This document shows, in pieces, positions 6,559 to 54,791 of a stretch of DNA of 64,000 nt. Made by a program: the position numbers and the translations under genes. Each line of letters begins with the position of its first letter. The first letter of the stretch is position 1. The notes beneath the pieces are model-generated. The model made no database searches and was not told where the DNA came from. It worked only from the letters and a program-made list of their open reading frames with translations. The stretch covers positions 2,108,001 to 2,172,000 of the forward strand of contig NZ_BAFN01000001.1 in assembly GCF_000949635.1 (NCBI RefSeq), given 5' to 3'. The DNA comes from Candidatus Brocadia sinica JPN1 (GTDB lineage: Bacteria > Planctomycetota > Brocadiia > Brocadiales > Brocadiaceae).

Positions 6559-7587
6559 TCATACCTTTTCCAATCCTCCCACCCTCACGCCTACAAGCCT
6601 GACCTTCTTTTTCAATTCAAACCTCTTCAGACAATCAAAGGCAGCCGTTCTTATCTCATTTACGGCATTCGTGGGCTCTGCAAGGGTTTTTGCCCTTGTG
6701 TGGGTTTTAAAATCACTGAATCTCACCTTCACCGTAACGGTTCTGCCCCTGTAGCTAGCCTGTTTAATGTCGTTCGCAACCTCCCTCGTAAGTTCTGCAA
6801 GGGTCCTGGCTATTATCTGCCAATCGTTCGTATCACTCTGAAAGGTAACTTCTCTGCTCGTGGATTTTGGTTCCCAGTGGGTAATAAGAGGACTTTCGTC
6901 TATTCCCCTCGACGCCTCGTAGAGATATCTTCCGTGAGATTCTCCAAATCCCTCGATAAGTCTTCCCCTAGGGAATAAAGCAAGCCCTCCGATGGTTCCG
7001 ATACCCATTTCCTTCAAGTATGCCTCTGTCTTTGGTCCCACGCCCCAAAGTTTTCTCACTGGTAACGGCCATATACGATTTTCTATGTCACCTTCTGCGA
7101 TGATGGTTAGTCCATCCGGCTTTTGCATGTCAGAGGCAATTTTTGCCAGGAGTTTGTTGGGAGCTACTCCTATAGAACAGGTAAGACCTGTCTCCTGTTT
7201 GATCTTTGTTTTGATTTCTTTTGCAATCTCCTCTGCCGTCTTTTCTATCAGGGATATATCAAGAAATACCTCGTCAATCCCCACATCCTCCATTATTGGA
7301 CTGAATTTTCTCAAGATGCCCTTTATCTTTCGGGATACCCTTGAATACTCCTCATAATCTACGGGAAGAAAAACGGCATGAGGACAGAGTTTGTATGCAA
7401 TTCTTAAAGGCATTGCGGAATGTATCCCATATTTTCTGGCTTCATAGGATGCTGTGGAGACTACGCCCCTTTGAGTGGGATCGCCGCTGCCTCCAATTAC
7501 GAGAGGCTTTCCTACCAGTTCCTGATTTCTCTTTTGCTCAACTGCTGCAAAAAAAGCATCCATATCTATATGAAGGATCCGTCTCAT
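6559..7587 (-). CDS. dinB: DNA polymerase IV
   Basis: A 342-residue Y-family translesion polymerase. The N-terminal motif HIDMDAFFAAVEQ and the catalytic segment GIDEVFLDIS carry the metal-binding acidic residues. A helix-hairpin-helix thumb segment (LWGVGPKTEAYLKEMGIGTI) and a little-finger domain follow. Length is close to the family norm; no obvious C-terminal beta-clamp motif is seen. The gene is intact although it lies between two IS copies in an interval that seems to have been inverted. A strong ribosome binding site is not evident, but the start matches the conserved N-terminus. Confidence 0.93.
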   Translation of the reverse strand: MRRILHIDMDAFFAAVEQKRNQELVGKPLVIGGSGDPTQRGVVSTASYEARKYGIHSAMPLRIAYKLCPHAVFLPVDYEEYSRVSRKIKGILRKFSPIMEDVGIDEVFLDISLIEKTAEEIAKEIKTKIKQETGLTCSIGVAPNKLLAKIASDMQKPDGLTIIAEGDIENRIWPLPVRKLWGVGPKTEAYLKEMGIGTIGGLALFPRGRLIEGFGESHGRYLYEASRGIDESPLITHWEPKSTSREVTFQSDTNDWQIIARTLAELTREVANDIKQASYRGRTVTVKVRFSDFKTHTRAKTLAEPTNAVNEIRTAAFDCLKRFELKKKVRLVGVRVGGLEKV

Positions 7588-7746: not shown

Positions 7747-7815
7747 GTAACACTTTAGTTCTTTGAAAAATTAACAAGCGATTTTATAGGCCAACCCAGA
7801 AGGCGTTTTTACCGT
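7747..7815 (+). repeat. terminal inverted repeat, copy 2 (transposase end)
   Basis: Identical to 1502-1570; contains the stop codon of the copy 2 transposase at 7771-7773. Confidence 0.94.
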
Positions 7816-9141: not shown

Positions 9142-10009
9142 GAGTAAGAAACCTCCGGAAATTTTTGTGGAGAGGATACAGGTAGAGTTCCTTAGGTTGG
9201 CCATGATACTGATAGCGATTGCCCCGTTTTGCACTCCCCTTGGTTTTACCAACACGCATCCAATTGGCTGCCTGGTAGCAGGTGCCTTGAAACCGTGCGG
9301 TATCAACAAAGGTTTCAGCCAAATACACGGGATGGCCATAGACGGATTTCCAGTCATGTGACAAACGCCTGAGGGCGAGGGATAATACCTTGGATGCAAG
9401 GTGTTTGATCATAACCCAGGGTGGAATGAGAAATCGCACGTTACTTGCAATCAAATGCAAGTGTGTCCGTTTGGAAGACTCATCCCATCCGATGAAACGA
9501 TCACGGTCTTTGACCTTCCATGCGGCACTTGCCCATCCAAGACAGGCAACGACCTGGTTGCCGATATGTACGATGTGCCTGATGTGTTCGCCAACAAGCC
9601 GGGGACATCCGAGGTAGTGGTAGTGATGAAGGAGATAACCCCAGAGGTACCTCTCTTGATGGTCTCTTACCACCTGGACCGTCGGGGTTTCATACTCGGT
9701 GATGGCACCTTCCAGTGTTCTTTTGACGAAAAGGGGCATCTGATCAAAGACCTTGGGTTTGAGATTGTTTTTCGGCCGTATTCGTGGCGGAAGCGAAACC
9801 AATCCCTGCTCTTCCAATCTCAGAAGGAGGTCTCGTGCTGCGTATTCTTTCAACTTGCCATTGGGCTGCATCCAGTTCCAACTCTTGCAGAGTTCACGGG
9901 AAATATAACTTCGCCCTCTGAGAAAATGACGCTCAGTGAGAGCCTTGATAAAGGCTATATCGTCTGCATGCAGTTCTCGTGAACGGTAGTGGAATAGGAT
10001 AGGCTTCAT
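9128..10009 (-). CDS. DruA-like DUF4338 protein, element copy 2
   Basis: 293 residues, almost identical to the copy 1 protein, with V for I in TPTVQVV and H for Y in LLHHYHYLG. It overlaps the transposase start by 14 bases. The reading frame has been kept in both copies, which suggests it is needed by the element rather than being a passenger. Confidence 0.85.
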   Translation of the reverse strand: MKPILFHYRSRELHADDIAFIKALTERHFLRGRSYISRELCKSWNWMQPNGKLKEYAARDLLLRLEEQGLVSLPPRIRPKNNLKPKVFDQMPLFVKRTLEGAITEYETPTVQVVRDHQERYLWGYLLHHYHYLGCPRLVGEHIRHIVHIGNQVVACLGWASAAWKVKDRDRFIGWDESSKRTHLHLIASNVRFLIPPWVMIKHLASKVLSLALRRLSHDWKSVYGHPVYLAETFVDTARFQGTCYQAANWMRVGKTKGSAKRGNRYQYHGQPKELYLYPLHKNFRRFLTHDQG

Positions 10010-39873: not shown

Positions 39874-42800
39874 TCATCTCATCTCTAGATCAAACTGCCC
39901 ATCCTTATATCTAACTCTGACAACGTCATTATTCCTAGTGTTCTTGGTCAGTTCGATACTCTCGATATCGCAGAGTTTAGTAACCACGTCGTCAGGTTGA
40001 GGTGGCAACAGAACATCAGGATTTTCAGGGTCAGCACCATTGACACCCTCGATAATTTCAGGCATGAACGTTTCGTTATCAATTTCATTGCCAGTAACCG
40101 TGTTGAAAAGATAAGCAAAATGGGTATCTGCAGACGTTCCATTGATAGTTCGACCGATGATCACCAGCAACGAGTCATCTCGGCTACACCAGAACTGCTG
40201 CCAAAACATTTGTGTGATAAGTTTGATTTCATTACCAAGGCCATGGGGACCATTGGGCATGGAGAAACCTAAGTTGTAAAGAGATACTGCAGGGTCGTAC
40301 GCGGGGTCATTCCTCCATGGCGGGATAACAATTCCAACCCGGCATCGGGGGGAAATCGCGTAATAGAGTACTGGCGATGGTGATGAGGAAATACTCCCTG
40401 TAGTGATATGAAACGATACAGTAGGAGTATTCCTATCACCGCCAATCGTGGCGGTAATGCTGCCACATGATTGGCTGCTATCGCCATAATGATGTAACGT
40501 CACTCGGTCGAACAAACCATATTTTCGCTTAATAACGAGGGAAGCCGGAACGCTACGTGTAAAATTGGTGTCAGAAGCAATAATATTAAAACCTGTCTCT
40601 CCTAAACTAGCTACACCTTCCTTATTGCGCACAGTAAGCGTGCTGTATCCAGTATTATCTGGTTCTGGGTTTAACTCGACGTCTCGAGGACCGAAATCAT
40701 GGTTGACACCTTTGCCGTCAGGAAGATCTGTTGAGAGGTTTACGTTTAGCTTATTGAGAATATTATGCCCTGTCAACATCAACCTGTAATCGGCTTGCCC
40801 ACCCCATTCGACAGTTTGCTCTGTTGGCTGAACATTGATCTCAAAATGCGGTCGTGCAGTGACAATGAAAGGAAGTCCCGTCGACTGAATAAAGTCACGT
40901 TCCGGAATGACGGCATAGAGTTCCCAGTTGCCAGGTGTTAGATATGCAGTTGCATCTCTTTCGCTAAGACTTACCTGGAAAGTTATTTCAGGATATTGTC
41001 CCGTAGATGTTGTCTGACTAATACGATGAGATTGCTGGTTTCCGTTGTTCACTTTTTGAAGCAACCACTGCACATTATTCTGTGGAACACAGCCACCAAT
41101 TACCCTAAAAGTGTAGGCGTCTTGCTCTTGAATGTTCGGTGTAATGCCACTAGCCCAGCTCAAGGATGGTTGATCGTAGATTTCGTAGCGTATGGGTCCC
41201 TGGAAAATATGGTCTGCCGCTGAAGCTGTCACTTCAACCGGCATGCACGCTGCAGTGGTTCTGAAATCCACTGCAAGACTGGTTTGACCTTCTTGTATTA
41301 TCACAGGAGATTGAACCTGTAGCACTGATGGGATACTTGAGGTGATCTCAACCGGTATGCCCCCCATTGGCGCAGGGCAACTGACCCGGACTGTAAATGT
41401 ACCGCTTGTCCCTCCCCTGAGATCTGTCCCTGTAGGAGACTGTACCAGCCACAATTTTTTGACGCGCTCTACCGTAAGCGAAACTGGTGCAGCGGTACCA
41501 CAGTGAACTTGGTTTGCTTGGCTTACAGCTCCTATCGTGTAGGTCGTAGTATCAGACCGTGTTTCCAGTACGGAACCGGAGGAACCCCCCTTAGCTACCT
41601 GATTACCTTGCTCGTCCCGTATGGTTACCTCAATACTACCGCAAGGTGGAATCGGTGCATCAACAGGCCGGTCTATCAAATGCACGCGCCAGCTGATCTC
41701 GACGGGCGTGCAGGCTTCCGCCCGATGGACTGATGACCGGAAGAAATCGATGACAGGTGGGTAAATAATGCTAACCGCTGCGGCGGGAGATCTATCCATG
41801 AGAATTTCGGCAGGAAGTTCGGGCATAGCAAGGCCGCAGGTATCCGCCAGCCTTCGGCTCGCTTCTGATGGAAGGGAGCCGAGCGCTCTTAGATAGACAG
41901 GGCCTGTATGCGCCTTTGTTGGTGGTATTTGTGGTTTCGGAGGTTTTTTGGAAGGTATGCGGAAACGGATCTCAGTCGGTTGAACAGAGATTGGTGTGAT
42001 GACTTGATCTCCGAAATACAGCAAGACCCCGGTTGGCAGGGTAGGCGGTATTTGGGGCTTGGGAGGTATTGTGATTGGGAAGAAGCGTCCAGGCTGCGGT
42101 CGGGCTACGAGCACTTGATTCGGATCATAATTGCTACAGAGGCAATTTGGCTCGACCGAGGCGATCAGGTCGGTAAATTCGTCGCGGAGCTGAGCGGCCA
42201 GGACTTCCCCGTACAAGCCCAGGCACAGGTCGTTGATCTGCTCGCATGGACTGGGTTCGAATCCATCGTCCGGACCTGGCTCCGGTTCGGGAGGGAATCC
42301 TTTAGGTGGTCCAGGTGGAAGGATGAAAGTTGTAAGTCCATCGTCACCAGGAAAGACACCAAAAGGGCCTTCGAATTCACGAAACGCCCGATCTGCCAAG
42401 TCGTTGTAAAAAGAGATATCCTGCATTCGATCACGGACATAGGCCCGCGCCTGTCTTGTCCATCTTGCATCTTGATTCCGTTCTTTGAAGTCTAGACGAA
42501 AGGCACCTTCGAGAACCTTGGCGGTACGCTGAAGAATAGGACCACAGCCTCTCACAGGTTGCAGTTCTCCCAGTGCATCGATGAGTCCCATTTTACTCAT
42601 ATCCTCGATCCGGCCTAACACCCCCGGAGCACCGCCTGGGCTAGTGAATGGAAAAGCACTTAATACCCGGCGTAGCGATTCTTCAGCGTCTTTGTCTCCA
42701 GCGAGGCTGCGTGCAGAAAATTGACTGATCTCGTTTATTTCCTTGATTACCTTCATGATCGAGAGAGGGACGCGTGCATTTCGAACATCGACACCCTGGA

Positions 42801-43326
42801 GCCTTGCGAGTTTTTCCGCTAAGTGTTGCAAGACCGACTTAGTAATGATGTCACTTGACGTAATAAGGGGTGGTTTCGAAACTTGTCCGCTTGTTGGGTG
42901 CATGATGCGCAGCTTTACGGCTATGGAATCTTCATCTTTATAGGGAGCTATACGAATATTCCCAAGGACTTTTCCTGTGCGGTCAAGAGCTCTTATTTCT
43001 ATATTCCCCGGATGAAAGATCTCTTTTACTTCCGCAGTAAGTTCGAATTTCAGAGTAAATGCGCCAACTTCTTCAGGATAAACTGCCTCAACTATCTCTT
43101 TTTCCGTGCAGCGATCTCTGGCCTCGACGCGGACTTCAGAGTCCATCCAAGGTTCCCATGGTTCCAGAAAACCAATAACGCTTAAAGTTCCACTCATTGA
43201 CAGTTCTTGTTTCACTGGTTCCTGACTCATCCGCGCCATTGCAACCTGAACTGAGAGGCTTAAGGAAACTGCTACAAGAGTTACAAAAATAATTACCACC
43301 GCTACCTTTAATGAAAACCCTTTCAT
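39874..43326 (-). CDS. large secreted Ig-like protein of unknown function
   Basis: 1150 residues with a signal peptide (AVVIIFVTLVAVSLSLSVQ, then VAMA). No enzyme motif is recognised. There are proline-rich linkers (PPGPPKGFPPEPEPGPDDGF, KPPKPQIPP), a TIG-like strand set (VLLYFGDQVITPISVQPTE) and several beta-rich segments with paired cysteines (VRVSCPAPMGGIPVEIT, DSSQSCGSITATIGG), so a multi-domain adhesin or matrix protein is plausible. The start has GAGGAG upstream. A c-di-GMP riboswitch lies 340 bases upstream in the same direction. Confidence 0.65.
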   Translation of the reverse strand: MKGFSLKVAVVIIFVTLVAVSLSLSVQVAMARMSQEPVKQELSMSGTLSVIGFLEPWEPWMDSEVRVEARDRCTEKEIVEAVYPEEVGAFTLKFELTAEVKEIFHPGNIEIRALDRTGKVLGNIRIAPYKDEDSIAVKLRIMHPTSGQVSKPPLITSSDIITKSVLQHLAEKLARLQGVDVRNARVPLSIMKVIKEINEISQFSARSLAGDKDAEESLRRVLSAFPFTSPGGAPGVLGRIEDMSKMGLIDALGELQPVRGCGPILQRTAKVLEGAFRLDFKERNQDARWTRQARAYVRDRMQDISFYNDLADRAFREFEGPFGVFPGDDGLTTFILPPGPPKGFPPEPEPGPDDGFEPSPCEQINDLCLGLYGEVLAAQLRDEFTDLIASVEPNCLCSNYDPNQVLVARPQPGRFFPITIPPKPQIPPTLPTGVLLYFGDQVITPISVQPTEIRFRIPSKKPPKPQIPPTKAHTGPVYLRALGSLPSEASRRLADTCGLAMPELPAEILMDRSPAAAVSIIYPPVIDFFRSSVHRAEACTPVEISWRVHLIDRPVDAPIPPCGSIEVTIRDEQGNQVAKGGSSGSVLETRSDTTTYTIGAVSQANQVHCGTAAPVSLTVERVKKLWLVQSPTGTDLRGGTSGTFTVRVSCPAPMGGIPVEITSSIPSVLQVQSPVIIQEGQTSLAVDFRTTAACMPVEVTASAADHIFQGPIRYEIYDQPSLSWASGITPNIQEQDAYTFRVIGGCVPQNNVQWLLQKVNNGNQQSHRISQTTSTGQYPEITFQVSLSERDATAYLTPGNWELYAVIPERDFIQSTGLPFIVTARPHFEINVQPTEQTVEWGGQADYRLMLTGHNILNKLNVNLSTDLPDGKGVNHDFGPRDVELNPEPDNTGYSTLTVRNKEGVASLGETGFNIIASDTNFTRSVPASLVIKRKYGLFDRVTLHHYGDSSQSCGSITATIGGDRNTPTVSFHITTGSISSSPSPVLYYAISPRCRVGIVIPPWRNDPAYDPAVSLYNLGFSMPNGPHGLGNEIKLITQMFWQQFWCSRDDSLLVIIGRTINGTSADTHFAYLFNTVTGNEIDNETFMPEIIEGVNGADPENPDVLLPPQPDDVVTKLCDIESIELTKNTRNNDVVRVRYKDGQFDLEMR

Positions 43327-43631
43327 AAAGCATCTCCTCGATAAGTTTTATTGATGTGCTGGAAGCTTCTACAAGTCTTCATTTACTACACCCAGTTTGG
43401 CGCTGAATTCTTGCATCTTCGTTTCATATACATCCTTTCATTTAATTCTTGAATTCATCCGGCATGTAATATTTGGTTGTTTGGCCTGACATCATTTCAT
43501 ATCTATAGTAACAGTCGTCTTCTTTTACGGCTATTAGTACATATAATACTCTTACACTGGCATATTATACGCCTAAATGAGCGTATAATGCGGGATATTA
43601 GATCAAAAATAGTTGTTTTTAACTCGTAAAA
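43327..43631 (-). other. 305-base leader between riboswitch terminator and the 1150-aa gene
   Basis: No gene is recognised. It contains a 9-bp inverted repeat ATTATACGC/GCGTATAAT (43564-43572 and 43581-43589) that includes TATAAT on both strands; this could be an operator or part of an additional promoter downstream of the riboswitch. Confidence 0.45.
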
Positions 43632-43685
43632 ACAAAAAAGCCTTACTGCAAAAATGTTCATTGAAACATCTTCGGCAGTAAGGCT
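43632..43685 (-). terminator. riboswitch-controlled intrinsic terminator 1
   Basis: On the minus strand AGCCTTACTGC (43675-43685) pairs perfectly with GCAGTAAGGCT (43639-43649), followed by a T run. The 5' arm contains CCTTAC, which the aptamer needs for its own stem, so terminator and ligand-bound aptamer exclude each other. Confidence 0.88.
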
Positions 43686-43790
43686 GTCTTTACTGTAAAA
43701 TCGTCTTTTGCAATCTGCGTCCGTGTACGTCTAAAAGACCCTTTTACTTTGCGTCCCCAGATCACTCTGGGTTTGCCTTTATCGTGATGT
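43669..43790 (-). ncRNA. c-di-GMP-I (GEMM-I) riboswitch 1
   Basis: Conserved GEMM-I elements in order on the minus strand: GGCAAAC; hairpin CCCAGA-GTGA-TCTGGG with a GNRA loop; GACGCAAAG; a stem GTAAAAGG with CCTTAC; a second helix GTCTTT/AAAGAC; and the 3' TGCCGAAG. It begins only about 29 bases after the stop codon of the upstream ThDP-enzyme gene, so it is probably transcribed as part of that operon. Confidence 0.85.
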
Positions 43791-43818
43791 GTTTTTATTG
43801 ATGGTACTTTTAAATCAT

Positions 43819-45393
43819 TTACATTATCATCATTGCACAAGGTTTTTTGATTTTGCCCTTAACTATATCGTCCCTCTTTATTGACAAAGGGTCTATCTCC
43901 TTTACAGGGCAGTCCATGCCTTCTAATACTAATCTCGTGTCTGCAACATTATTGTTCTTATTTACAGTGTCCACGCATATGATGGTAAACTCTAATCCCA
44001 TTGAGACGGCTGGTTGTAACTCCCTTATATGGTAAAAAAGTGAATTCTTGTCACAAATAAGAACAACGTTATTATCTGGATTACCAATAGCTGCACCTAT
44101 CGCAAAAGGAAGTCCAGCCCCTGGTATGTCCCGGTCATCCATGATAAAAAGATTTTTATAGATGGCCTTTCTAAAAAAACAAGATGCTGCAAGTGATAAC
44201 TCTTTCCCATCGACGATAAAGATGTCATTGCTGGAAGAAATATTTTTCAGTGAAGCAAATATTCCCCTTGCATCTTTAAACTCTTTTGACAATTCTATTG
44301 CTAATAGGTCGCAATTTTTATAGAAATCATCCCTCCAGGCACGGAAAGCGTTTTTATTCGTTTTCGTTTCTCGTTCAAAATAGGAGAAACTACTCCCGGG
44401 ATCTGCATGTACAGGACAAAGGTTAGGAATGCTGTCTGCAAAAGATGACGGATCAATTTCTACCTGGACAATACCCTTTACATGCGAAGAATTTTTTATC
44501 GCAGAAAGAATACGTTCTGAATAAGGGTCGATTCCTGCAATAATCAAAAGATCCGTCTTATTCAACAATTCCATTCCTGATGTTGAATTCATGAATAATG
44601 ACGCATCCCCGGCATAACAATAATCGTCGCCACAAAAAACCCCGGAACTGTGTACGGTAGTGATAACAGGTATTCCCAGTCTGTTTGCAGCCTCTTTCAT
44701 CCCCTGATATCGCCCGGGGCGTCCAAAACCCTGGCCTAAAATAATAATAGGCCTTTCGGACTTTTGAATCGTTTCACAGGCTTCTTTCAGACAAAAGGCA
44801 TCTCCCGCTATGGCACCTCTATACATCGTCCTCTCAGCCGGAGGCATTATACTCTGCCTTTTCTTTTTTGTAAGTACCTTGTATCTGAACAATATATCTA
44901 CAGGGATATCGATATGTACCGGCCCTGGTATACCTTGCCATGCCTCCCTGAACGCCCTGTAAATCATTTGAGGTATTCTCTCCCAGGTGTACACGATGGT
45001 ATTCCATTTAGTGATAGGGAAAAATATTTCATCCTGATTACAACCTTGTAAGTTTTCCTGATGAGGTTTTATTTTCCAGCTTTGAAGCTGTGGGGCAATA
45101 GAGAGAACAGGCAGATAATTGAACCACGCCTTTGACAGCCCTGAAACTTCATATATGACCCCGGCCCCTACCGTTGACATTGCTACGCTTGAGCATCCCG
45201 TAGAAGCAGTATAGCCGGACGCCATGAGAGCTGCGGCAGTTTCACAACGCGGAACGGTTAAATGAATTTCCGGGAATTTTTCAAATGCATCATATACGGT
45301 GCCGATGTGTTCTCCGGATATAGAAAACACATGCTTGATTCCACATTGAACAAGTACGTCTAAAAGCAATGCCCCCCCAGTGATTATTTTCAT
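43819..45393 (-). CDS. ThDP-dependent enzyme homologue with degenerate cofactor motif
   Basis: 524 residues from the ATG at 45393 (GGAGG eight bases upstream; stop of the previous gene 2 bases away). It is an acetolactate-synthase-like three-domain protein: PYR domain with the catalytic glutamate in PRCETAAALMASGY, a central domain with IILGQGFGRPG, and a PP domain. The normally invariant GDG of the PP domain is CDK (LICDKNSLFYHIREL), and the later metal-ligand asparagine (SND in the partner) is replaced (CVD). It may be a non-catalytic partner of the 625-residue protein. Confidence 0.8.
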   Translation of the reverse strand: MKIITGGALLLDVLVQCGIKHVFSISGEHIGTVYDAFEKFPEIHLTVPRCETAAALMASGYTASTGCSSVAMSTVGAGVIYEVSGLSKAWFNYLPVLSIAPQLQSWKIKPHQENLQGCNQDEIFFPITKWNTIVYTWERIPQMIYRAFREAWQGIPGPVHIDIPVDILFRYKVLTKKKRQSIMPPAERTMYRGAIAGDAFCLKEACETIQKSERPIIILGQGFGRPGRYQGMKEAANRLGIPVITTVHSSGVFCGDDYCYAGDASLFMNSTSGMELLNKTDLLIIAGIDPYSERILSAIKNSSHVKGIVQVEIDPSSFADSIPNLCPVHADPGSSFSYFERETKTNKNAFRAWRDDFYKNCDLLAIELSKEFKDARGIFASLKNISSSNDIFIVDGKELSLAASCFFRKAIYKNLFIMDDRDIPGAGLPFAIGAAIGNPDNNVVLICDKNSLFYHIRELQPAVSMGLEFTIICVDTVNKNNNVADTRLVLEGMDCPVKEIDPLSIKRDDIVKGKIKKPCAMMIM

Positions 45394-45395
45394 TT

Positions 45396-47273
45396 TTAAG
45401 ACCTCCACTTGGCCATTATGTTCACCCTCAATAAAGCTTTTCTGATATAGGTAAGATTAAAGAACAGCTTGCTCCATCCTAATTTCATTATCAATAATGA
45501 ACTCTTTAATACCTTAATCGGATTTAAAAGCTTCAGTAAACCATCAAACTCAATAAGAGAGAAACTCGCCAGACAGTCCGGAAAATTGTTTTTGTCAGTT
45601 ATAATATCAACGAGCGCTGCTTTGCCTTCACTTGCCCCTTTTTCGTACGCGGGTAGTATGTCCCCGACCTTATCCACCCGTGTTGCATGCAAACCAAACC
45701 CACGGGCTATTTTTGAGTAATCAATGTCAGGGAGCATAGTGCCAACAAAATTTCCTCCTAACATGAAATACTGCATAGCCCTGATCATATTCCACGCCGA
45801 ATCATTGGAGATTATTATCATAATGGGTAAGTTTAGCCTGCAAATGGTCTCGAGTTCCTGGATATGGTACAGGAATGATCCATCTCCACTTATCAGCATA
45901 ACCCGTTTCCCCGGCGAGGCCAGTTGAACCCCAATGGCGTAAGGTATCCCACAACCAATTGCTGCCATGCCAAACGGATAAAAAGATTGCTGGGGTCCCA
46001 GTGAAGGCGCATGCGTAGCGAAAAAAACTGGCGTGTTACCACCATCCACTACCAGGACCAGATCATCCCTCTTTATGACTTTCCCCAGCTCTTGTATGAT
46101 CTTTCCCTGTTGTATAACCGGCCACTTTTTATTGATAAATTTGTTAAGTCTCTTATATCGGCCCTCTTTCAGATGAGAAAGATACTTTGCCCATGACCTC
46201 CATGCAGGCTTTCCGCTAAAACCTTCGGAGCGCAATTGCTCTGTTAATTGATTAAGAACGGTTTTGACATCTCCCAGTATTGATATCTCGGGAGACACAT
46301 TCAGACCAATCTGAAGCGGATCTATATTGACATGAATAAATTTAATCTTGTCAGACCATAGAGGAGGAAGACCAAATCCGTCTAATCCACAAAAGCTTAC
46401 TCCCAGCGCAAGTACAATGTCGGCCTCTTTTATAGCGACATGAAAGGCTTCACCCGTTGTATAGGCCGGCCCGCCAAGACAGTACTCATGATCTGACGGT
46501 ATCGAGCCGAAACCACCCATTGTTGTAGCAGCAGGGATCTTAAACGCTTCGATAAAACGGATAACCTCTTCATAGGCCTCAGAAACCTTCACTCCTCCCC
46601 CGCAAAAAATGAGAGGTTTTTTTGCATTCTTAATACTCGATGCTGCTTTTTCAATTGCAAGCTTATCCCCAGCCAGCCGTATAGGCCTCGCTTCGTTCGT
46701 AATTGGTGAAGACGATGGTGAGAATACGGTAGTGTCAAAAGAGACGGTTTTCTCTAATAATCCGAAAGGTATGTCAATATGTACCGGACCTCTTTTATGC
46801 CTGGTACTTTCAAACTTTCCCTTCTTTATAGTGTCTGGAATACTCTCGAGTGTATTGATCCGTTTCCTCCAAATGGTAACCTCATGATACACTGCATTTT
46901 GGTCAAATCTGTATCTGTTAAACCCTTTATTGTAATCAACTTCATCATCATTGCAAATTGACAAAGAAAGCAAAGGGGTCTTATCAGCCCAGGAATTTGC
47001 AACTCCATAAATCTGCGATAATGATCTGCCATTGTCATCCGTTAATACAACGGCAAACTTCCCGGAGCGCCTAATATAACCGTCTGCCATTAAGGTCGCT
47101 GCCCCTTCAGTTCTCGCAATAATTACCTGTATACTCGTTTTCTTTTCTAAACATGTTCTGAGAGGGCTAAGTCTGTCTGAAGATGTAGTAAAAACATAAC
47201 TGATTCCATTAGCAACAAGACTTCTCGCGATGAGTTCGTTACCTGAAAGATCTTCCACGTTTAAATCTCCCAT
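45396..47273 (-). CDS. ThDP-dependent enzyme (acetolactate synthase-like)
   Basis: 625 residues with all three ThDP-enzyme domains: glutamate in IIARTEGAATLMADGY, central domain (PLIFCGGGVKVSEAYEEVI), and PP domain with intact cofactor motif LISGDGSFLYHIQELET followed by IISNDSAWNMI. A C-terminal extension of about 60 residues follows. The substrate cannot be told from sequence; decarboxylation or carboligation of a 2-oxo acid is expected. It precedes its degenerate paralogue by two bases and follows the peroxidase gene. Confidence 0.85.
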   Translation of the reverse strand: MGDLNVEDLSGNELIARSLVANGISYVFTTSSDRLSPLRTCLEKKTSIQVIIARTEGAATLMADGYIRRSGKFAVVLTDDNGRSLSQIYGVANSWADKTPLLSLSICNDDEVDYNKGFNRYRFDQNAVYHEVTIWRKRINTLESIPDTIKKGKFESTRHKRGPVHIDIPFGLLEKTVSFDTTVFSPSSSPITNEARPIRLAGDKLAIEKAASSIKNAKKPLIFCGGGVKVSEAYEEVIRFIEAFKIPAATTMGGFGSIPSDHEYCLGGPAYTTGEAFHVAIKEADIVLALGVSFCGLDGFGLPPLWSDKIKFIHVNIDPLQIGLNVSPEISILGDVKTVLNQLTEQLRSEGFSGKPAWRSWAKYLSHLKEGRYKRLNKFINKKWPVIQQGKIIQELGKVIKRDDLVLVVDGGNTPVFFATHAPSLGPQQSFYPFGMAAIGCGIPYAIGVQLASPGKRVMLISGDGSFLYHIQELETICRLNLPIMIIISNDSAWNMIRAMQYFMLGGNFVGTMLPDIDYSKIARGFGLHATRVDKVGDILPAYEKGASEGKAALVDIITDKNNFPDCLASFSLIEFDGLLKLLNPIKVLKSSLLIMKLGWSKLFFNLTYIRKALLRVNIMAKWRS

Positions 47274-47299
47274 AGTTTAAATTACCTATTTATTTCACA

Positions 47300-49723
47300 C
47301 TATTCCTGTAAAAAATCCCCTCTTTTCTGATATTCTAAAGCAAAATCAGATCTTTTCCGATCCCATAAATCAAAGGGATTTTTAACATTACGTAGTGCCG
47401 GCCGAAGCTTTGGAAATTGTCGTTTGATGACATCCACCATATTGGTAGTGTTCACATAGTCAAATCCCCACCGGGTATAAAATTCTGGCCGATAATGTTC
47501 GGTAAAAAACCGATCGCTAAACAACCTTCGGGAAGCGTTTAAAATAAAAACCTGAAACTGAGTTTCACTGATCACGAAGCCGTGTGGCCGTGAGAACTCG
47601 GCGAGGATACCAACCAGAAGATCTACTTTTTCAATGTCGCTGTCATAAACCTTGCGCATTTCTTCCACCAGCCGTTGCTGACGTTTCAGCTCTGCTTGTT
47701 TTGCCTGAAGTTCGTCAGCGGTAAGATTGGGATCTTTACGGAAATCACGCGATCTGTTGTTTTCAATTTCCCACACAAGCTCTTTGTCGATAAAATCAGT
47801 AAAATCCTTCAAAGGTTTCAGTTGCAGTTGCCGGCGAAATTCATTAAAGCGCGGGACCCCACGCTCTCTATCCCGAATAATGTCCATTGCAGCAAGGTCA
47901 ATTTTACCTCCGGGCGCCTGAGGCACCACAAGTTCAGTCATAAAGCAGGGAAAATTTTCGAGGGTGAGCTGCCCACAGCCGGTAAGGCCAAAAGATAATG
48001 CGATACTATCGATCCCGATTCCCCGCATAAAACGTTTCGAACCTTCCCGAACAGTATCGACAATGGCGATTTGGTTCTGAACGGTTTTTATACCAGGCAC
48101 TTTACTTTCTAATTCTCTGCCGCTAAATTGTCGCACTTGACCTTGAGAAAGTACGTCAGCATCATAAATTGCTAAAAAATCTGGTATGGTGGGATGGAGC
48201 CGATAGACAGAAGTAAATTCCTCCGTTAAGGTAAATGGTACCCCGAAGTGTTCCGCCCTTGGCATCCCCATGACGCCGGTGCCAGTAACCGCAAGGCTGA
48301 CTAACTCATCTTTGCGAAAATCCTGTAGCGTAGCGGTAAAGTCATTGATAGCTTTTTTAGAGCCTTCCCTGGCTATGCGCATGATTTCCTCTTTAAATGG
48401 GGAATCCCCTTGGGTACTGCCCAACAAGCCTTGCCAATTGGTATGCATAGCCATGTCCCCCAGCCGATTGTAAAGAAGTTGGGGCGTCCATTCGATGGTA
48501 TGAATTTTGGCTAGTAATGCAGAGATGATTAGCCTGGCGGTATCATAGAGTTCCTCATCACTCCATGCTGCTGCCCCACTCGGGGGGGTAGCGTTTTGCC
48601 GCAATTGATCAACGATATAGTTATGCTCTTTAGAAAACATGACGTGCATCAAACTAAGGCCCACCCACCAGTTATCTGCAAAAGCTGATATTTCCTGGTC
48701 AAGGAAGCCTTTAGGGGGATGAAGTCCAACTTCGCTGTAAGAGGGGAGCACCCCAGTGTCCGACACTTTTAATTTGGCTTTGTCTTTGGGATCGAGCACC
48801 CTTTGCTGCGTTTCCTGGTCCCAGCCGTAAAGTTGCGAGGCATCCCACCAGAAGGTCACCGTATTTTTCCATGTTTCCACGGGAATATTTTTTAAACCAG
48901 CCAAACCTTTTTGATCGTCGTGGAGAGTTCGCGCCACCTCCCAACCACCCCCTTGCCCAACTTTTGCTAAGCTTTGCAATTTACTTTCAGAAATGGAAAA
49001 GGTGTTGCTATTGTCGTTCCATCCATCACGGGTATGAGAAAACCAATCATGAGTCATAAATTGAATCCAGGCAGAGGCCCAAAGATTAAAAAATGGCGCT
49101 GCGTGATGGTTAAAGGGGTCTTTTCTCACTAAAAGGCGTTCACTGATAACGCGGGGATTAGGGTCGCCCGCATCCTGTGAGGAAGTCACTTTGCGATGGA
49201 AATCAATGACAGATCTATTAGCGGTCTCAATGGTTACATTCCGCCCAAACCGCTGCCCTACGGCGCCCATCAATGGGTTATCAAAATCGTTGCAGCGGCC
49301 ATCGAGCGTTCGTGCGCGGTAGACTGGATTTTTCAGGCTCCTTTCCCCACAAGACGAACCATCCTGCATTGCCTTCCAGACAACCCGCCGTTCGTCTCCT
49401 GTCTGCCGGCCCCGATCACCCCATGCACCATTGGTATCGTGCATATTATTGGCTACAAGATTTATGCGGAACTTTTCTAACTCGCCTAATGCGGCAGCAA
49501 TACCAACAGCTTGAGTTAATTGGCGTGAGGCGATATCATAACGGGTTCCCGTAAACCATTGCCAAAGTACCCAGGGGCGGTCCTGATTGCGTTTCACTCT
49601 GGGATTCAACCTGGCTGCAATATCTTCTATCACAGATCTTTCTTCACTTATCTCGGTCTCCGGTTTTTTGCATCCAATAAAAACAGATAAAAACATACAT
49701 GAGATTAATAATATGCGGGTCAT
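47300..49723 (-). CDS. animal-type haem peroxidase lipoprotein
   Basis: 807 residues from the ATG at 49723 (GGAG at correct spacing; the frame is open to 49756). The leader ILLISCMFLSVFIGC ends in a lipobox, so a membrane-anchored, exported protein is predicted. The peroxidase domain shows the family signatures RTLDGRCNDFDNPLMG, the distal histidine in FMTHDWFSH, and the proximal histidine in MFSKEHNYIV. The C-terminal part (DKELVWEIENNRSRDFR) is longer than the core. These enzymes use hydrogen peroxide to oxidise halides or phenols. The adjacent GMC oxidase could supply the peroxide. Confidence 0.85.
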   Translation of the reverse strand: MTRILLISCMFLSVFIGCKKPETEISEERSVIEDIAARLNPRVKRNQDRPWVLWQWFTGTRYDIASRQLTQAVGIAAALGELEKFRINLVANNMHDTNGAWGDRGRQTGDERRVVWKAMQDGSSCGERSLKNPVYRARTLDGRCNDFDNPLMGAVGQRFGRNVTIETANRSVIDFHRKVTSSQDAGDPNPRVISERLLVRKDPFNHHAAPFFNLWASAWIQFMTHDWFSHTRDGWNDNSNTFSISESKLQSLAKVGQGGGWEVARTLHDDQKGLAGLKNIPVETWKNTVTFWWDASQLYGWDQETQQRVLDPKDKAKLKVSDTGVLPSYSEVGLHPPKGFLDQEISAFADNWWVGLSLMHVMFSKEHNYIVDQLRQNATPPSGAAAWSDEELYDTARLIISALLAKIHTIEWTPQLLYNRLGDMAMHTNWQGLLGSTQGDSPFKEEIMRIAREGSKKAINDFTATLQDFRKDELVSLAVTGTGVMGMPRAEHFGVPFTLTEEFTSVYRLHPTIPDFLAIYDADVLSQGQVRQFSGRELESKVPGIKTVQNQIAIVDTVREGSKRFMRGIGIDSIALSFGLTGCGQLTLENFPCFMTELVVPQAPGGKIDLAAMDIIRDRERGVPRFNEFRRQLQLKPLKDFTDFIDKELVWEIENNRSRDFRKDPNLTADELQAKQAELKRQQRLVEEMRKVYDSDIEKVDLLVGILAEFSRPHGFVISETQFQVFILNASRRLFSDRFFTEHYRPEFYTRWGFDYVNTTNMVDVIKRQFPKLRPALRNVKNPFDLWDRKRSDFALEYQKRGDFLQE

Positions 49724-49874
49724 AGTATTCTCCACTGTAAAAGATTTACAATACAATGAATGATTTTTAAGGAGAAGTTATTTCAGATAATCTGCTGTAT
49801 GTGGGGGCCTCCCTTCCCTGATCATTGTCTCTTTTAAAACTATCACTCCGTGTGCACGAAAGCAGGAGTATCTC

Positions 49875-52241
49875 TCATCCATGAGTTTGTTGGCTGGGTA
49901 AGAGATTTTTCATATATGTTTCATATAATTCGCCAAAGAAAAAAGAGGTAAATTTGTTTTTAGCACTGAATGCAGTCTTGACATTAGATCCATTACGAAC
50001 CCGAATCGTGGCTAACTGTCGGGTAATATCATGTAAATGTATACGAACAATACCTTGTCCTAATACCGGGTCTCGAGTTGTATTCCCTTTGTGAATGGTA
50101 ATGAAAAGGGTTGTATAATCTTTCCATATTTCCCAGATATCAACATCAGGGTCATCCCGCATCTCTTTATAGCCGTCCAGCAAGCAGGGTTGACCATCAT
50201 CGCCGAAGAATTGCAATGAAAAGAGCATGCGTTTTGTATGTATTTGCGGGTCTTTGATGAACAAGTTAAACCGCCCTTGTTCGACCATTTGTTTCATGCT
50301 GCCCATCTTTATATGACCTTCTGCACGAGCATCATGTGCAGGTTCAATCACAAATTTATCGACACTGTCTATATACGCCGTTAGTTTGAAGCCGATATCG
50401 TTCCCTTCCTGTTTCCCAAGCTTTTCAGCTTTATGAAAATCCTCAGGTGTCTTTGCATTTGTCACACTCTTACTGAAATAACCATTCATCTCCGTAGTAA
50501 ATTCGATACCTAGAGGAGGTGAAATAATCACCGGGGGGGGCAGGGCGCCCTCCCTTGGTTTCTTATTTACGGTGGCATCCTGAACAATCAGGTTAGCGAT
50601 TCGTTCGGATAAAGCGGAGATTGTAAAAAACGGATTCACTCCTAACGAGGTGGGAATCATTGAACCATCAGCAACAAAAAGTCCATTATGAACTGCACCA
50701 GATGTATCTTGTGCCAGATCAAAGACCCTCCCGCGATGATCAACAACGCCTGTATCAGCACTTTTGCCCATAGCACAACCTCCCAGCGGATGAACCGTAA
50801 TTATATTCCTGCCAAAGAACGGCGTCCACCTGGGATTCCTGATGTAAGTCCCTCCCAATGCTTTCGTTAGTTGTTTCATTTCATCATCAATCTTTTGAAA
50901 AATTGGTTTGGACGGCGCCGCCGCCCAGTGAATGCGTATCTTCCCCTCAGAGTCAACTGCGATAACGCCATCTGCGCTGTCGTGCCCTATTCCCAGATAT
51001 AACATTGAATGGTTGAGGGCGCCTTTTACATCATAATGTGCAATATCTCTCACCACCCGTGCGGCTTCTGAAGCCTCGTCAATGACACTGAAATCGGTAT
51101 CATGGCCGGCAACTGCACTAATCTTTGGCATGGAGTACCGGGTGAAGTCTACGAAGGCTCTTGGAAAATCACCCTCTTCTATAATGTAACGGTCTTTCAG
51201 TTCCAGTTCTTTCCTGCGATAATCGATAACAGAGAGGATCAAGGGGCCGACTTGAATCTTCGAACGTTTATCTCGGATATTGCCAAAACCGAGCACGTCG
51301 GTTCTCTGGTCACTATTGTAACCAACCCCAAATGAGTCCGCATTCCCGGAAAAATAATGCCCGATCTTATCAGAAACAGCAAGACCCCGATCGCGGGAAT
51401 TCAACAGTATGTGCGTAGAACCCAAAGCGCCGGCAGCTATAATGACGACATTTGCATGGATAAACCTTGATTTTTTGTCCTCTGAATGAGAAGTACAATG
51501 AACAAAATAACCACCACCATCGGCTTTACTAATGTAGTTGACTTCCATTTCCGTTATAATAGATGCGCCCTGACTTTTCGCAAAAGGAAGATAATTCATG
51601 TATAATGTGTTCTTAGCCAGGACGTTACAACCGGTCATGCAGTCGCCACATAAGATGCAAGGTCTTTGATGTACACCAACATGATTGGGTTCATCATTAT
51701 ATTTTTCAAAATTAACTGCCAGATTCAGTTTATAGTATTTACCGGGACGGTCTTTGGCTGATTTTTCATGAGCTTTTATTTTCCCCAAAGATGGACGGTT
51801 GTCTGGATAGACAGCACCCTGTAACATGTCATTCGCCTTTTCAAAATATTTATTGAGTTTACCGTTATCCCGGTCTTCACGAATCTCGTCCGGCCATCTG
51901 CTATTGTTAAAAACATCATCGTCTGGTTTAAAGATGACGTTCGCATTAATTAAAGATGTCCCACCAAGACCACATCCCACGAAAACATCAACATCCTCAG
52001 TTACACGATAGTCATATAACCCTAATGGATTGCTATCTGAACGAAATTGTGCAGTCACTTCAGCCATTTCGTCGGGAAACTCGCCCGGTATCCACTCTTT
52101 CCCTCTTTCGAGAAGACAAACTTCATATCCCGCAGATGCCAGTCTTGCCGCAGTTATTGAGCCACCATAACCTGAACCAATGACTATAATTCCATAACGA
52201 TCTTTCAGTTCTGTTATTGAATTAGATAACTTTGCGTTCAT
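49875..52241 (-). CDS. GMC oxidoreductase (cholesterol oxidase-like)
   Basis: 788 residues. FAD-binding N-terminus IIVIGSGYGGSITAARLASA, second site VGCGLGGTSLINANV, a cysteine-rich segment CILCGDCMTGCNVLAKNTL characteristic of the cholesterol-oxidase-like branch, and the C-terminal histidine motif VHPLGGCAMG with DGSMIPTSLGVNP. After about residue 565 there is an extra domain of about 220 residues with lipid-related beta structure (LFSLQFFGDDGQPCLLDGYK), as in long GMC proteins. No signal peptide is seen. Expected to oxidise an alcohol with O2 to give H2O2. Confidence 0.87.
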   Translation of the reverse strand: MNAKLSNSITELKDRYGIIVIGSGYGGSITAARLASAGYEVCLLERGKEWIPGEFPDEMAEVTAQFRSDSNPLGLYDYRVTEDVDVFVGCGLGGTSLINANVIFKPDDDVFNNSRWPDEIREDRDNGKLNKYFEKANDMLQGAVYPDNRPSLGKIKAHEKSAKDRPGKYYKLNLAVNFEKYNDEPNHVGVHQRPCILCGDCMTGCNVLAKNTLYMNYLPFAKSQGASIITEMEVNYISKADGGGYFVHCTSHSEDKKSRFIHANVVIIAAGALGSTHILLNSRDRGLAVSDKIGHYFSGNADSFGVGYNSDQRTDVLGFGNIRDKRSKIQVGPLILSVIDYRRKELELKDRYIIEEGDFPRAFVDFTRYSMPKISAVAGHDTDFSVIDEASEAARVVRDIAHYDVKGALNHSMLYLGIGHDSADGVIAVDSEGKIRIHWAAAPSKPIFQKIDDEMKQLTKALGGTYIRNPRWTPFFGRNIITVHPLGGCAMGKSADTGVVDHRGRVFDLAQDTSGAVHNGLFVADGSMIPTSLGVNPFFTISALSERIANLIVQDATVNKKPREGALPPPVIISPPLGIEFTTEMNGYFSKSVTNAKTPEDFHKAEKLGKQEGNDIGFKLTAYIDSVDKFVIEPAHDARAEGHIKMGSMKQMVEQGRFNLFIKDPQIHTKRMLFSLQFFGDDGQPCLLDGYKEMRDDPDVDIWEIWKDYTTLFITIHKGNTTRDPVLGQGIVRIHLHDITRQLATIRVRNGSNVKTAFSAKNKFTSFFFGELYETYMKNLLPSQQTHG

Positions 52242-52334
52242 TGTGTTCCTCCCGGTATAAAAGATTAATACTTTTTATCAGTAATTAACAAAGGCAGGAT
52301 ACCATGATAGATTGCCTGGGGCATATCCGCAGCG

Positions 52335-54461
52335 CTAGGGGATATTTGCATGTGAGAATTCAGTAATCTGCCCCCCATTGTTTATAACCACCAGTCTATA
52401 ATATGGCGGTTGATTGCCTAGCCTTCGCACCGCACAGGAGGCAGTCTGTACGATTACAGGACTCTGCCCCCACCATGCATACGGCTTATCATGGTTAAAA
52501 TTTTCGCTGTACCTGTCGTGATATATCCTGATCTTATGATTTTTATCTTTCTCTATTCTAAATTCAATATTCCGGTGGGCGTGTCCTGAAAAAACAATGT
52601 CTATTAACTTGAACTTACGATCCACGTCCTGTTTTACCAGATCACCCTCTCTGTAACCCATACAGAGATAAAAGAACTCGCTCAGATAATAATTAACCGT
52701 TCCGTATGTAAGATTACATTCCTCTTCAGGAACCCACGCTGGTCCTTCCTTTCTTACAATTTCCCGCATGGTATCCATATCAACATCATCGGATGAGTTG
52801 ATTGGAGGGGCATGCAAAAAGATGAAATTTTTGCCATGAGCATCCGGCTTCCTGCTCACAGCTTTCATAACTTTTTCTAACCAGACTATTTGGCTCCAAT
52901 TGTAATAAACCTGTTCTGGGTCAAATGCCTTTGAATCGGGAGCTCCTCCCAGGATATTATCCTTTACACTTATTTTCTTGACATATTTAATCTCTTTCTT
53001 ATCCAAAAGTTGCCCGATGAAAACGTCGGATCCTGTATCCATAACTATAAAGCAATGTTTTCCATAGTGAAAGGCATAGTCAAGGTATGGGTTTATATAT
53101 CTGAAATAATAGTGAAGGGCGCTAGCTTCGGCATGGAGGGGATTATCTATAATGAAGTCAGCTATTTTACGTGTCTGATATTTTATAAATTTATGAATTC
53201 CCCATGTTGCTATTCCTGCAATTCCGGCAATTGCAAAATGAGAGACGTAATTTGCTATTGGATTTATCTTTTCTCCTATGCCTATCAATCCTAAAAGCGG
53301 CAAAATACGTACGAGCCAGGTTCCTACAGCAGTGGCAAGAAACTTTTCTAACTGTATTTTCCATTTATCGGTTTTTTTCAGGACATCAAGGTTCAGTTTA
53401 TTAAAGGTATCGCTTGTTATCTCTTCTGCCAATTTTACCCTCTTATCCTCTGGATATTCAGAGGAATCAAAGGATTTGTATTTATACTGTTTGAGCTCTT
53501 CTTCCGTTAAGCCAAAACTGTCTCTATTGTACTTTGAAAGGTTTGGATCGTAAGGGTGGAGACGCCAATCGTGATTCCCGGTTGATGTAAAAACCGCTAT
53601 TTTTATACCGGGATTGTTCCGCTCCTTTTCCTTTCCTGCGCCGGTAATTATATTAATAAAAGTTTTCCAATTGTTTTCATCTAAATTTATTTCATCCCCC
53701 CAGCCATGAAAGGCAAAATCTACCAAATCTCCTGTAATTACAACAAAATCGAGATTACCCTCCTCAGCCATACTGTTTGCTCTCTGAATAAACTTTCTCA
53801 GGTTACGGTTAAAGTTAATGTATCTTTTTGCGATGTCGTCTCCACATTTCTTCTCATGCTTTACTTTCAGAACTTCATCGAGTATCTCGTCATTTCGTGT
53901 GGCAACATGAAGATCGGTAACCTGAATGAATTTGCAGCCTTCACCAAAGCTTTTAACAAATTGCACAGAATGGTAGTTAACCCTCTCCCACTTTTCTGAT
54001 CGGTCTCTGTATACCAGATCGTAAAGACATGGGGGGCATTTTCCTCCTTTTTGAGGTAAAAGAAGAGTTTCATAATCTTCTGTGCTTTTACAATCGATAC
54101 TGACCATGATTTTCCAATACCGGGTATTCTCCCCCATTACATTGTAATGGAACTCACTAGGAATAATCTCTCTCGTATCGTCTACTGTATTGAAATCCGA
54201 TAGTTGATACCAATGAATAATCTCCTCAGGTTCATCGTTCATAGACAGTGGAATATCTTTTTTATCTCCATCCCCTTTATGAGAGCGTCGTAAATACAAA
54301 GTTCCCATAAAGTCATCCTTCAAGGGCATCTTGTTTTCCCCGTATTGTCCGGCAATTATTAACGGAAACATCTTCTTTTGCCCAAACTCCTCAACTGAAG
54401 CAATCTGTGGGCAACCGAGATTTGGGCTTATTATCAATGGAAAATCATCTCTTCTTGTCAA
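52335..54461 (-). CDS. calcineurin-like metallophosphoesterase
   Basis: 708 residues, TTG start with GAGG upstream. Phosphoesterase motifs in order: QVTDLHVA, GDLVDF, STGNHDWR, FLHAPP and SGHAHRNIEF, so a complete dinuclear metal site is predicted. The N-terminal 150 residues form a separate domain (FMGTLYLRRSHKGDGDKKD), and two hydrophobic segments (about 380-425) interrupt the catalytic domain. Substrate unknown. It is the first gene after the riboswitch. Confidence 0.83.
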   Translation of the reverse strand: MTRRDDFPLIISPNLGCPQIASVEEFGQKKMFPLIIAGQYGENKMPLKDDFMGTLYLRRSHKGDGDKKDIPLSMNDEPEEIIHWYQLSDFNTVDDTREIIPSEFHYNVMGENTRYWKIMVSIDCKSTEDYETLLLPQKGGKCPPCLYDLVYRDRSEKWERVNYHSVQFVKSFGEGCKFIQVTDLHVATRNDEILDEVLKVKHEKKCGDDIAKRYINFNRNLRKFIQRANSMAEEGNLDFVVITGDLVDFAFHGWGDEINLDENNWKTFINIITGAGKEKERNNPGIKIAVFTSTGNHDWRLHPYDPNLSKYNRDSFGLTEEELKQYKYKSFDSSEYPEDKRVKLAEEITSDTFNKLNLDVLKKTDKWKIQLEKFLATAVGTWLVRILPLLGLIGIGEKINPIANYVSHFAIAGIAGIATWGIHKFIKYQTRKIADFIIDNPLHAEASALHYYFRYINPYLDYAFHYGKHCFIVMDTGSDVFIGQLLDKKEIKYVKKISVKDNILGGAPDSKAFDPEQVYYNWSQIVWLEKVMKAVSRKPDAHGKNFIFLHAPPINSSDDVDMDTMREIVRKEGPAWVPEEECNLTYGTVNYYLSEFFYLCMGYREGDLVKQDVDRKFKLIDIVFSGHAHRNIEFRIEKDKNHKIRIYHDRYSENFNHDKPYAWWGQSPVIVQTASCAVRRLGNQPPYYRLVVINNGGQITEFSHANIP

Positions 54462-54487
54462 TTGAACCTCTTTTCCTTATCCTGAAA

Positions 54488-54540
54488 ATAAAAAAGCCTT
54501 ACTGCAAAGATATATTTACAACATCTTCGGCAGTAAGGCT
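54488..54540 (-). terminator. riboswitch-controlled intrinsic terminator 2
   Basis: AGCCTTACTGC (54530-54540) pairs with GCAGTAAGGCT (54495-54505), followed by a T-rich run; the same stem as terminator 1. It ends about 27 bases before the start of the metallophosphoesterase gene. Confidence 0.9.
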
Positions 54541-54640
54541 GTCTTTTTTAGTAAGGTATTTTATGCTACTTCCCTGTATGCTTAAAAGACCCTTTACTTT
54601 GCGTCCTCTGATTGCTCAGAGTTTGCCTTTATCGTATGTT
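54525..54640 (-). ncRNA. c-di-GMP-I (GEMM-I) riboswitch 2
   Basis: On the minus strand: GGCAAAC, hairpin CTCTGA-GCAA-TCAGAG (GNRA loop), GACGCAAAG, GTAAAGG pairing with CCTTAC, helix GTCTTT/AAAGAC and TGCCGAAG. The stem bases differ from riboswitch 1 by compensated changes while the conserved core is identical. The strand shared with the terminator predicts an ON switch: ligand binding frees transcription. Confidence 0.88.
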
Positions 54641-54697
54641 TTTGGTTTATTCCTTCGTGCTGTCAAAAGCTATTGTTTGTTGACAATCTTTCGCATT

Positions 54698-54725
54698 AAA
54701 ATATCAAAGTATCGTTGGATGTCAA
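54698..54725 (-). promoter_or_regulatory. candidate promoter of the riboswitch operon
   Basis: TTGACA at 54720-54725 and TATTTT at 54698-54703 with a 16-base spacer, about 50 bases before the aptamer. Confidence 0.4.
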
Positions 54726-54791
54726 GGAAAAAACTAACAGAGAATTCTAACATTTCCATAGAACAGGCAAAAATAGGAGGGATTATATCAT

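Follow-up and report, generated by a model that had tools for sequence, protein, structure and literature searches.

The window analysed here, 64,000 nt of the Candidatus Brocadia sinica JPN1 genome, contains a conserved cassette (43818..54781) on its minus strand, on which all features described below are located. It comprises a promoter, a riboswitch and five genes, and its limits are the points where DNA identity to two other Brocadia genomes (G003 and G009) stops. In gene order, it encodes a metallophosphoesterase (MPE), a GMC flavoenzyme, a homolog of fatty-acid α-dioxygenases (α-DOX), a ThDP enzyme (TPP1) and a degenerate paralog of the latter (TPP2), with gaps of 93 nt, about 150 nt and 26 nt, followed by a 13-nt overlap. 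An earlier, sequence-only reading had described the region as a c-di-GMP-gated operon of extracytoplasmic redox enzymes that also included a 1150-residue secreted protein; the open reading frames are indeed found at the positions it gave.

A σ70-like promoter (54698..54725; TTGACA-16-TATTTT, with a TG before the −10 element) was found in a consensus scan with 10/12 matches; it is a consensus match only, in a region that is conserved in G009. It is followed by a c-di-GMP-I aptamer (aptamer 1, 54525..54636; Rfam RF03167, 66.6 bits, E 1.5e-13; RF01051, 67.5 bits) and by a terminator (54489..54540; fold of −25.7 kcal/mol, then a U-run); the 3′ strand of the aptamer and the 5′ arm of this terminator overlap. 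A second aptamer (aptamer 2, 43670..43786; 63.4 bits, E 1.2e-12) starts 33 nt past the TPP2 stop codon in the leader of the gene for the 1150-residue protein, and overlaps a second terminator (43634..43685; −26.7 kcal/mol, then a U-run). Both scores exceed the Rfam gathering score for this class, 59 bits. Thus, the riboswitch with an overlapping terminator that had been proposed ahead of the co-directional genes is confirmed by Rfam scores and hairpin folding. In their aptamer fold and score, the conserved GGC core and the placement of the terminator on the aptamer 3′ strand, these elements resemble known c-di-GMP-I (GEMM-I) riboswitches with intrinsic terminators.

The 5′ arm of both terminators, CAGCCUUACUGCCGAAG, is at the same time the 3′ strand of the respective aptamer, and the same holds for the two orthologous leaders that precede the MPE gene in G003 and G009. 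The expression platform and the aptamer are therefore mutually exclusive in the window as well as in these leaders, and the sharing of this strand with the long terminator hairpin points to an ON-switch architecture. Both aptamers carry AAAGGCAAAC, with a G at what we take to be position 20 of the Vc2 numbering. A G20A change lets c-di-GMP-I RNAs bind cGAMP (PMC7288161). By these sequence features, both aptamers belong to the c-di-GMP-I class, and c-di-GMP is their predicted ligand. We found no report in the literature of c-di-GMP-I riboswitches controlling fatty-acid oxygenation.

The first gene encodes the 708-residue MPE (52335..54461, TTG start; PF00149, Metallophos). Its DLH, GDxxD, GNHD and GHxH motif residues are kept across eight homologs; the hydropathy profile contains one hydrophobic stretch (residues 375–396), and the structure model is poor (pLDDT 50.5). 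The second product, of 788 residues (49875..52241; PF00732/PF05199), is a GMC flavoenzyme of the cholesterol-oxidase type. Cholesterol oxidase is its closest match among known structures (1.6e-24), but its score of 197 bits falls far below the NCBIfam equivalog cut-off of 850 for true cholesterol oxidases. It contains a CX2CX2CX3C motif, conserved among homologs, which may hand electrons to acceptors other than O2 and makes a dehydrogenase, rather than an H2O2-producing oxidase, possible. Its C-terminal β-barrel domain is well modeled (pLDDT 82) and gave no significant match in the PDB, only weak matches to other β-barrels.

The third gene (47300..49723; the reading frame opens at 49756, and residue numbers below refer to the 812-residue frame from 49738) had been read as an exported haem peroxidase, and its product does belong to the Pfam family An_peroxidase. 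Within this family, however, it sits on the α-dioxygenase branch: its best structural matches are plant α-DOXs (4kvj, 7.1e-81; 4hhr, 3e-79), compared with 5e-11 for lactoperoxidase and, in profile comparisons, 3.8e-7 at best for prostaglandin synthase. The rice residues H157, H311, T316, Y379, H382 and R559, whose roles are established (PMC8720084), correspond to H230, H413, T418, Y512, H515 and R738. Among these, the distal H230, the proximal H515 and Y512, which lies three residues before H515, are invariant in seven aligned DOXs, and the residues that position the carboxylate and Cα (H413, R738 and T418) are kept as well. Among plasmid-encoded proteins, the best match is that of Calothrix PCC 6303 (34.6% identity, 1e-102); an α-DOX of Calothrix parietina has been demonstrated to be active (PMC8720084). 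Given this homology and the complete active site, the haem enzyme looks like an oxygen-using fatty-acid α-dioxygenase of the plant type, and we reject an H2O2-using animal-type haem peroxidase, since the nearest relatives with structures are α-dioxygenases. Of the earlier description, the export signal stands: the protein bears a lipobox and appears to be exported and membrane-anchored. It shares the catalytic domain with its Tyr radical, haem-ligation and carboxylate residues with rice and Arabidopsis α-DOX and the cyanobacterial CalDOX, LepDOX and CsDOX, but differs from them in an N-terminal extension of about 140 residues with the lipoprotein signal, in its operon setting with a riboswitch, a GMC enzyme and paired ThDP genes, and in its host, an anammox planctomycete from a phylum outside the five bacterial phyla listed for this family (PMC8720084).

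TPP1 (45396..47273; 625 residues; PF02776/PF00205/PF02775) has an intact GDG...N cofactor motif and catalytic Glu, with GDG and ND kept in five orthologs, and a basic C-terminal tail. Its nearest families are the carboligating glyoxylate carboligases, acetolactate synthases and benzaldehyde lyases. TPP2 (43819..45408; 529 residues), assigned by alignment, has no GDG motif; in all five orthologs, it features CDKN, TDKN, CDTD or SDKD instead, along with a truncated C-terminus. The dN/dS of TPP2 is 0.15–0.20. The protein is probably a non-catalytic partner of TPP1. The gene list of the sequence-only reading is thus borne out by Pfam for the metallophosphoesterase, the GMC enzyme and both ThDP homologs, and has to be amended for the peroxidase. 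Its term 'extracytoplasmic' cannot be extended to all enzymes: among the six gene products of that reading, export signals are present only in α-DOX and the 1150-residue protein, and none was found in MPE, GMC, TPP1 or TPP2.

In G003 and G009, the five genes recur in identical order together with the riboswitch and promoter region, at different loci. The same gene order can thus be found downstream of a GEMM-I RNA in other genomes, and, together with the tight spacing, this supports the view that the five genes form one operon. A copy in a second anammox genus (G018) extends from GMC to TPP2 and has neither MPE nor riboswitch. The flanking DNA differs in every genome; for instance, sucD and a few bases 3′ of it are found at a separate place in G009. 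By this comparison, the cassette is a mobile unit that moves as a whole, from the promoter and the aptamer with its overlapping terminator to the last of the five genes. The dN/dS values of all five genes (0.07–0.23) indicate purifying selection. As α-DOX is present in only four of the 75 genomes of the class and absent from the other 71, we reject a universal anammox role such as ladderane synthesis; we likewise reject a role in anti-phage defence, as no PADLOC model gave a match. A scan of named genomes with DOX peptide patterns returned one Brocadia contig only, the patterns probably being too specific. The TPP1–TPP2 pair (in G036) and MPE–GMC also occur apart from α-DOX, which implies that these modules have roles beyond an α-oxidation pathway.

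We also compared the neighborhoods of α-DOX genes in plasmid records and Planctomycetota genomes. On three Rhizobium plasmids and in Phyllobacterium (patatin, ThDP enzyme, DOX), a ThDP enzyme is encoded immediately upstream of α-DOX, and the DOX of these plasmids has a fused catalase-like domain. A Streptomyces plasmid combines a ThDP decarboxylase, an FAD-linked oxidase, a P450, an α/β hydrolase and DOX. As in Brocadia, α-DOX has a ThDP enzyme and a lipase or other hydrolase as neighbors in these clusters, but the GMC enzyme is absent or replaced by other redox genes. In Calothrix, GMC and patatin genes lie near DOX. The recurrent ThDP neighbor supports a role in fatty-acid α-oxidation.

We therefore propose, as a fairly likely reading based on gene content and homology, that this locus represents a mobile operon, activated by c-di-GMP, for O2-dependent fatty-acid α-oxidation, and that the cassette probably runs a pathway so far undescribed in bacteria. 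At high levels of c-di-GMP, a biofilm signal, the aptamer would keep the 5′ arm of the terminator, allowing read-through by RNA polymerase. A lipid-directed hydrolase, MPE here and patatin or α/β hydrolases elsewhere, may deliver the fatty acid, into which the membrane-anchored α-DOX would insert O2 at Cα. The resulting (R)-2-hydroperoxy acid would lose CO2 to yield the Cn-1 aldehyde or be converted to the 2-hydroxy acid; the GMC enzyme may then oxidize the hydroxy or alcohol intermediate, and TPP1, probably with the non-catalytic TPP2, could decarboxylate, cleave or ligate the 2-oxo acid or aldehyde. Several observations weaken this reading. The host is an obligate anaerobe, while α-DOX needs O2. 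With α-DOX apparently exported and the GMC and ThDP enzymes bearing no export signals, the pathway would require its intermediates to pass into or through the membrane. Moreover, the G018 copy has no MPE and no riboswitch, the ThDP neighbors of α-DOX in other phyla share no more than about 25% identity with TPP1, and the alignment with the Calothrix GMC is confined to a short N-terminal segment. In bacteria, the Nostoc punctiforme linoleate 10S-dioxygenase, described by Brash in 2014, reportedly works with a catalase-related hydroperoxide lyase. It too is a haem dioxygenase of the cyclooxygenase/peroxidase superfamily with a partner that acts on the hydroperoxide, but its regiochemistry differs and its partner is catalase-related, in place of GMC and ThDP enzymes.

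The sequence-only reading had instead suggested that the GMC enzyme could make H2O2 for the haem enzyme, which would then work as a peroxidase outside the cytoplasm. Cholesterol oxidases do match the GMC enzyme, and a GMC–MPE cluster in G039 adjoins a catalase-like gene. However, the haem enzyme has the full α-DOX active site, its α-DOX matches are ~70 orders of magnitude better than that to lactoperoxidase, the GMC enzyme has no export signal and its cysteine motif may route electrons away from O2, so that we reject this relay as the main model and consider it very improbable. A weak form survives: α-DOX needs H2O2 as a radical initiator, and many α-DOXs have some peroxidase activity (PMC9305512). 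Protection at the oxic edge of a biofilm, where the operon would use up O2 or mend oxidized membrane lipids, seems equally far-fetched. Anammox bacteria encounter O2 and reduce it slowly, and the α-DOX is apparently membrane-anchored, but the enzyme forms hydroperoxides instead of removing them, and the accessible part of the published inventory of anammox O2 defences names other enzymes (PMC10156729).

A less remote, if still rather unlikely, alternative is that TPP1/TPP2 uses the α-DOX aldehyde in a ligation that yields an oxylipin for signaling or defence, either an acyloin or a hydroxyketone, with no catabolic shortening. This would suit the carboligating relatives of TPP1 and a patchy, mobile cassette, as is typical of accessory functions. 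Yet transporter and tailoring genes are absent, an identity of about 25% cannot fix the ThDP subfamily, and the ThDP partner in Streptomyces is annotated as a benzoylformate decarboxylase. More tentatively than for the α-oxidation operon itself, we see some possibility that, in an obligately anaerobic anammox host, c-di-GMP turns on a mobile, O2-consuming oxylipin pathway of α-DOX, GMC and an asymmetric ThDP pair, thereby linking the state of the biofilm to O2-dependent lipid signaling or remodeling; the combination of α-DOX and ThDP enzyme would then define a bacterial α-oxidation pathway present in several phyla.

If the α-oxidation reading is true, plant-type α-oxidation of fatty acids occurs in bacteria as gene clusters in which the partners are ThDP and flavin enzymes, and an 'anaerobe' holds it under second-messenger control. 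The corrected annotation also illustrates that 'peroxidase' labels can conceal oxygenases in genome records.

The 1150-residue protein (39874..43326), which has an N-terminal hydrophobic segment, had been counted in the same unit. We reject it as an operon member: it is an orphan, with no real homolog in any of the 58 relatives searched and no Pfam or NCBIfam family, and its gene carries its own riboswitch, for which G003 and G009 have no aptamer at the matching position. We infer that this gene lies outside the cassette and belongs to a wider c-di-GMP regulon of the genome, in which 55 c-di-GMP-I RNAs score above the cut-off. The locus makes testable both the role of c-di-GMP in anammox biofilms and the reason for the dozens of riboswitches in Brocadia.

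The cassette comprises a promoter, a c-di-GMP-I riboswitch and five minus-strand genes for a metallophosphoesterase (MPE), a GMC flavoenzyme, a fatty-acid α-dioxygenase homolog (α-DOX), a ThDP enzyme (TPP1) and its degenerate paralog (TPP2). Its best reading, taken from sequence, is that of a c-di-GMP-switched fatty-acid α-oxidation unit. The sequence-only reading had proposed an operon in which a GMC oxidase could supply H2O2 to a haem peroxidase. This operon is real and unusual, and the gene identities are upheld by Pfam families, but the role of the central enzyme as a peroxidase is not borne out: this member of the An_peroxidase family is related to α-dioxygenases rather than to peroxidases. 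Its top matches in the PDB are fatty-acid α-dioxygenases (7e-81), behind which lactoperoxidase trails by 70 orders of magnitude, and it retains the catalytic Tyr, the proximal His, the distal His and the carboxylate residues. The N-terminus appears to be of the lipobox type and is kept in four orthologs. Among plasmid genes, the closest match comes from Calothrix PCC 6303 and is annotated as ‘peroxidase family protein’. An α-DOX of Calothrix parietina has been characterized (PMC8720084), and we suspect that it is the product of this gene.

In plant-type α-oxidation, the first steps of which have been described (PMC8720084), a free acid would be converted to a 2-hydroperoxide, then to a 2-hydroxy or 2-oxo acid and finally to a shortened aldehyde. 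The predicted chemistry of the cassette fits this scheme, with the GMC protein and the ThDP enzyme presumably contributing steps of their own. TPP1 retains the ThDP motif and the catalytic Glu, while the GDG and the C-terminal part are missing from TPP2 in all five orthologs. TPP2 is nevertheless under purifying selection (dN/dS 0.15–0.20), as would be expected if it served TPP1 as a structural partner. The GMC protein belongs to the cholesterol-oxidase type and carries a CX2CX2CX3C motif. Its C-terminal domain (residues 560–788, encoded on the minus strand at 49878–50564) is a mobile β-barrel with no significant match in the PDB; other GMC proteins from planctomycetes, as well as DUF362 proteins, carry it at their N-terminus. 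A literature search of incomplete coverage returned no description of the cassette in anammox bacteria, nor of any α-DOX–ThDP cluster.

The two riboswitches proposed from the sequence are real, as judged by their Rfam matches, and the top-scoring model for them is RF03167, the GGC variant. In both, the final ~17 nt of the aptamer, the 3′ strand of P3/P1, double as the 5′ arm of a terminator hairpin (−25.7 and −26.7 kcal/mol), with a U-run after each; this design is shared by the orthologous leaders of two relatives, G003 and G009. Since ligand binding would thus break the terminator, we infer that both are ON switches. The aptamer core, AAAGGCAAAC, carries a G at what we take to be position 20 in the Vc2 numbering. 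In c-di-GMP-I riboswitches, a G20A change at this site would allow cGAMP (PMC7288161), and the presence of G makes c-di-GMP the likely ligand. The second switch belongs to the gene for the secreted 1150-residue protein downstream of TPP2; apart from a single weak local match, 58 relatives yielded no counterpart of this protein. The 4.08-Mb genome of the window, which lies on its contig C1, harbors 55 c-di-GMP-I riboswitches above the cut-off, a very large number for a single riboswitch class, and ten other Brocadia genomes have 19–45 each. A c-di-GMP-I riboswitch of this genome, at G000:C1:1909802-1909917, lies upstream of an ORF whose product looks like a sheath protein of the phage-tail or contractile-injection type (MATLSYPGVYVEEVPSG...).

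The host of the cassette belongs to the anammox genus Brocadia, and a near-identical copy is found on a contig of a Candidatus Brocadia sp. from the same genus. In G009, DNA identity of 91–92% extends over 43818–54785, from the base after the TPP2 stop (43818) to within a few bases of sucD, which in that genome is located elsewhere, without the cassette. G003 has all five genes and the riboswitch, and G018, from another anammox genus, has GMC through TPP2, with MPE and the riboswitch absent. The flanks of the cassette are unlike one another in all four of these genomes, including that of the window, and these are also the only genomes of the class, 4 out of 75, in which α-DOX occurs. Given this limited distribution, the cassette either spreads horizontally or is frequently lost. 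As the TPP1–TPP2 pair occurs on its own in one genome (G036) and the MPE–GMC pair in three (G021, G039 and G053), it looks as though two older modules had been joined with α-DOX. On contig C126 of G039, MPE and GMC adjoin a 792-residue catalase-like protein and an old-yellow-enzyme homolog, possibly another lipid-oxidation cluster.

The cassette sits within a larger insertion or rearrangement, since sucD and a gene for a 342-residue protein (6559–7587), which are adjacent in three relatives (G001, G003 and G007), are here 47 kb apart, with the stretch 7587–54792 of the window between them. Two ORF pairs (293 and 542 residues) occur in the window in mirror order on opposite strands, at 1652–3890 (plus) and 7771–10009 (minus), and are perhaps two inverted copies of a single mobile element.

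Similar neighborhoods are found in unrelated bacteria. A ThDP enzyme adjoins α-DOX in Phyllobacterium and on three Rhizobium plasmids, the loci checked having patatin, ThDP and DOX genes together. A Streptomyces plasmid cluster encodes a ThDP decarboxylase, an FAD-linked oxidase, a P450, a hydrolase and DOX, and downstream of the Calothrix α-DOX come GMC and patatin genes. For three independent co-occurrences of α-DOX and ThDP genes, a rough Poisson estimate with assumed ThDP gene numbers gives a chance probability of ~1e-5. This value is only indicative, as it allows neither for the cases having been noticed post hoc nor for the DOX matches from the Rhizobium phaseoli group and Qingshengfaniella, which have no annotated ThDP neighbor. 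The α-DOX proteins of Phyllobacterium and the Rhizobium plasmids carry a catalase-like domain at their N-terminus, a fusion that recalls catalase-related hydroperoxide-processing enzymes.
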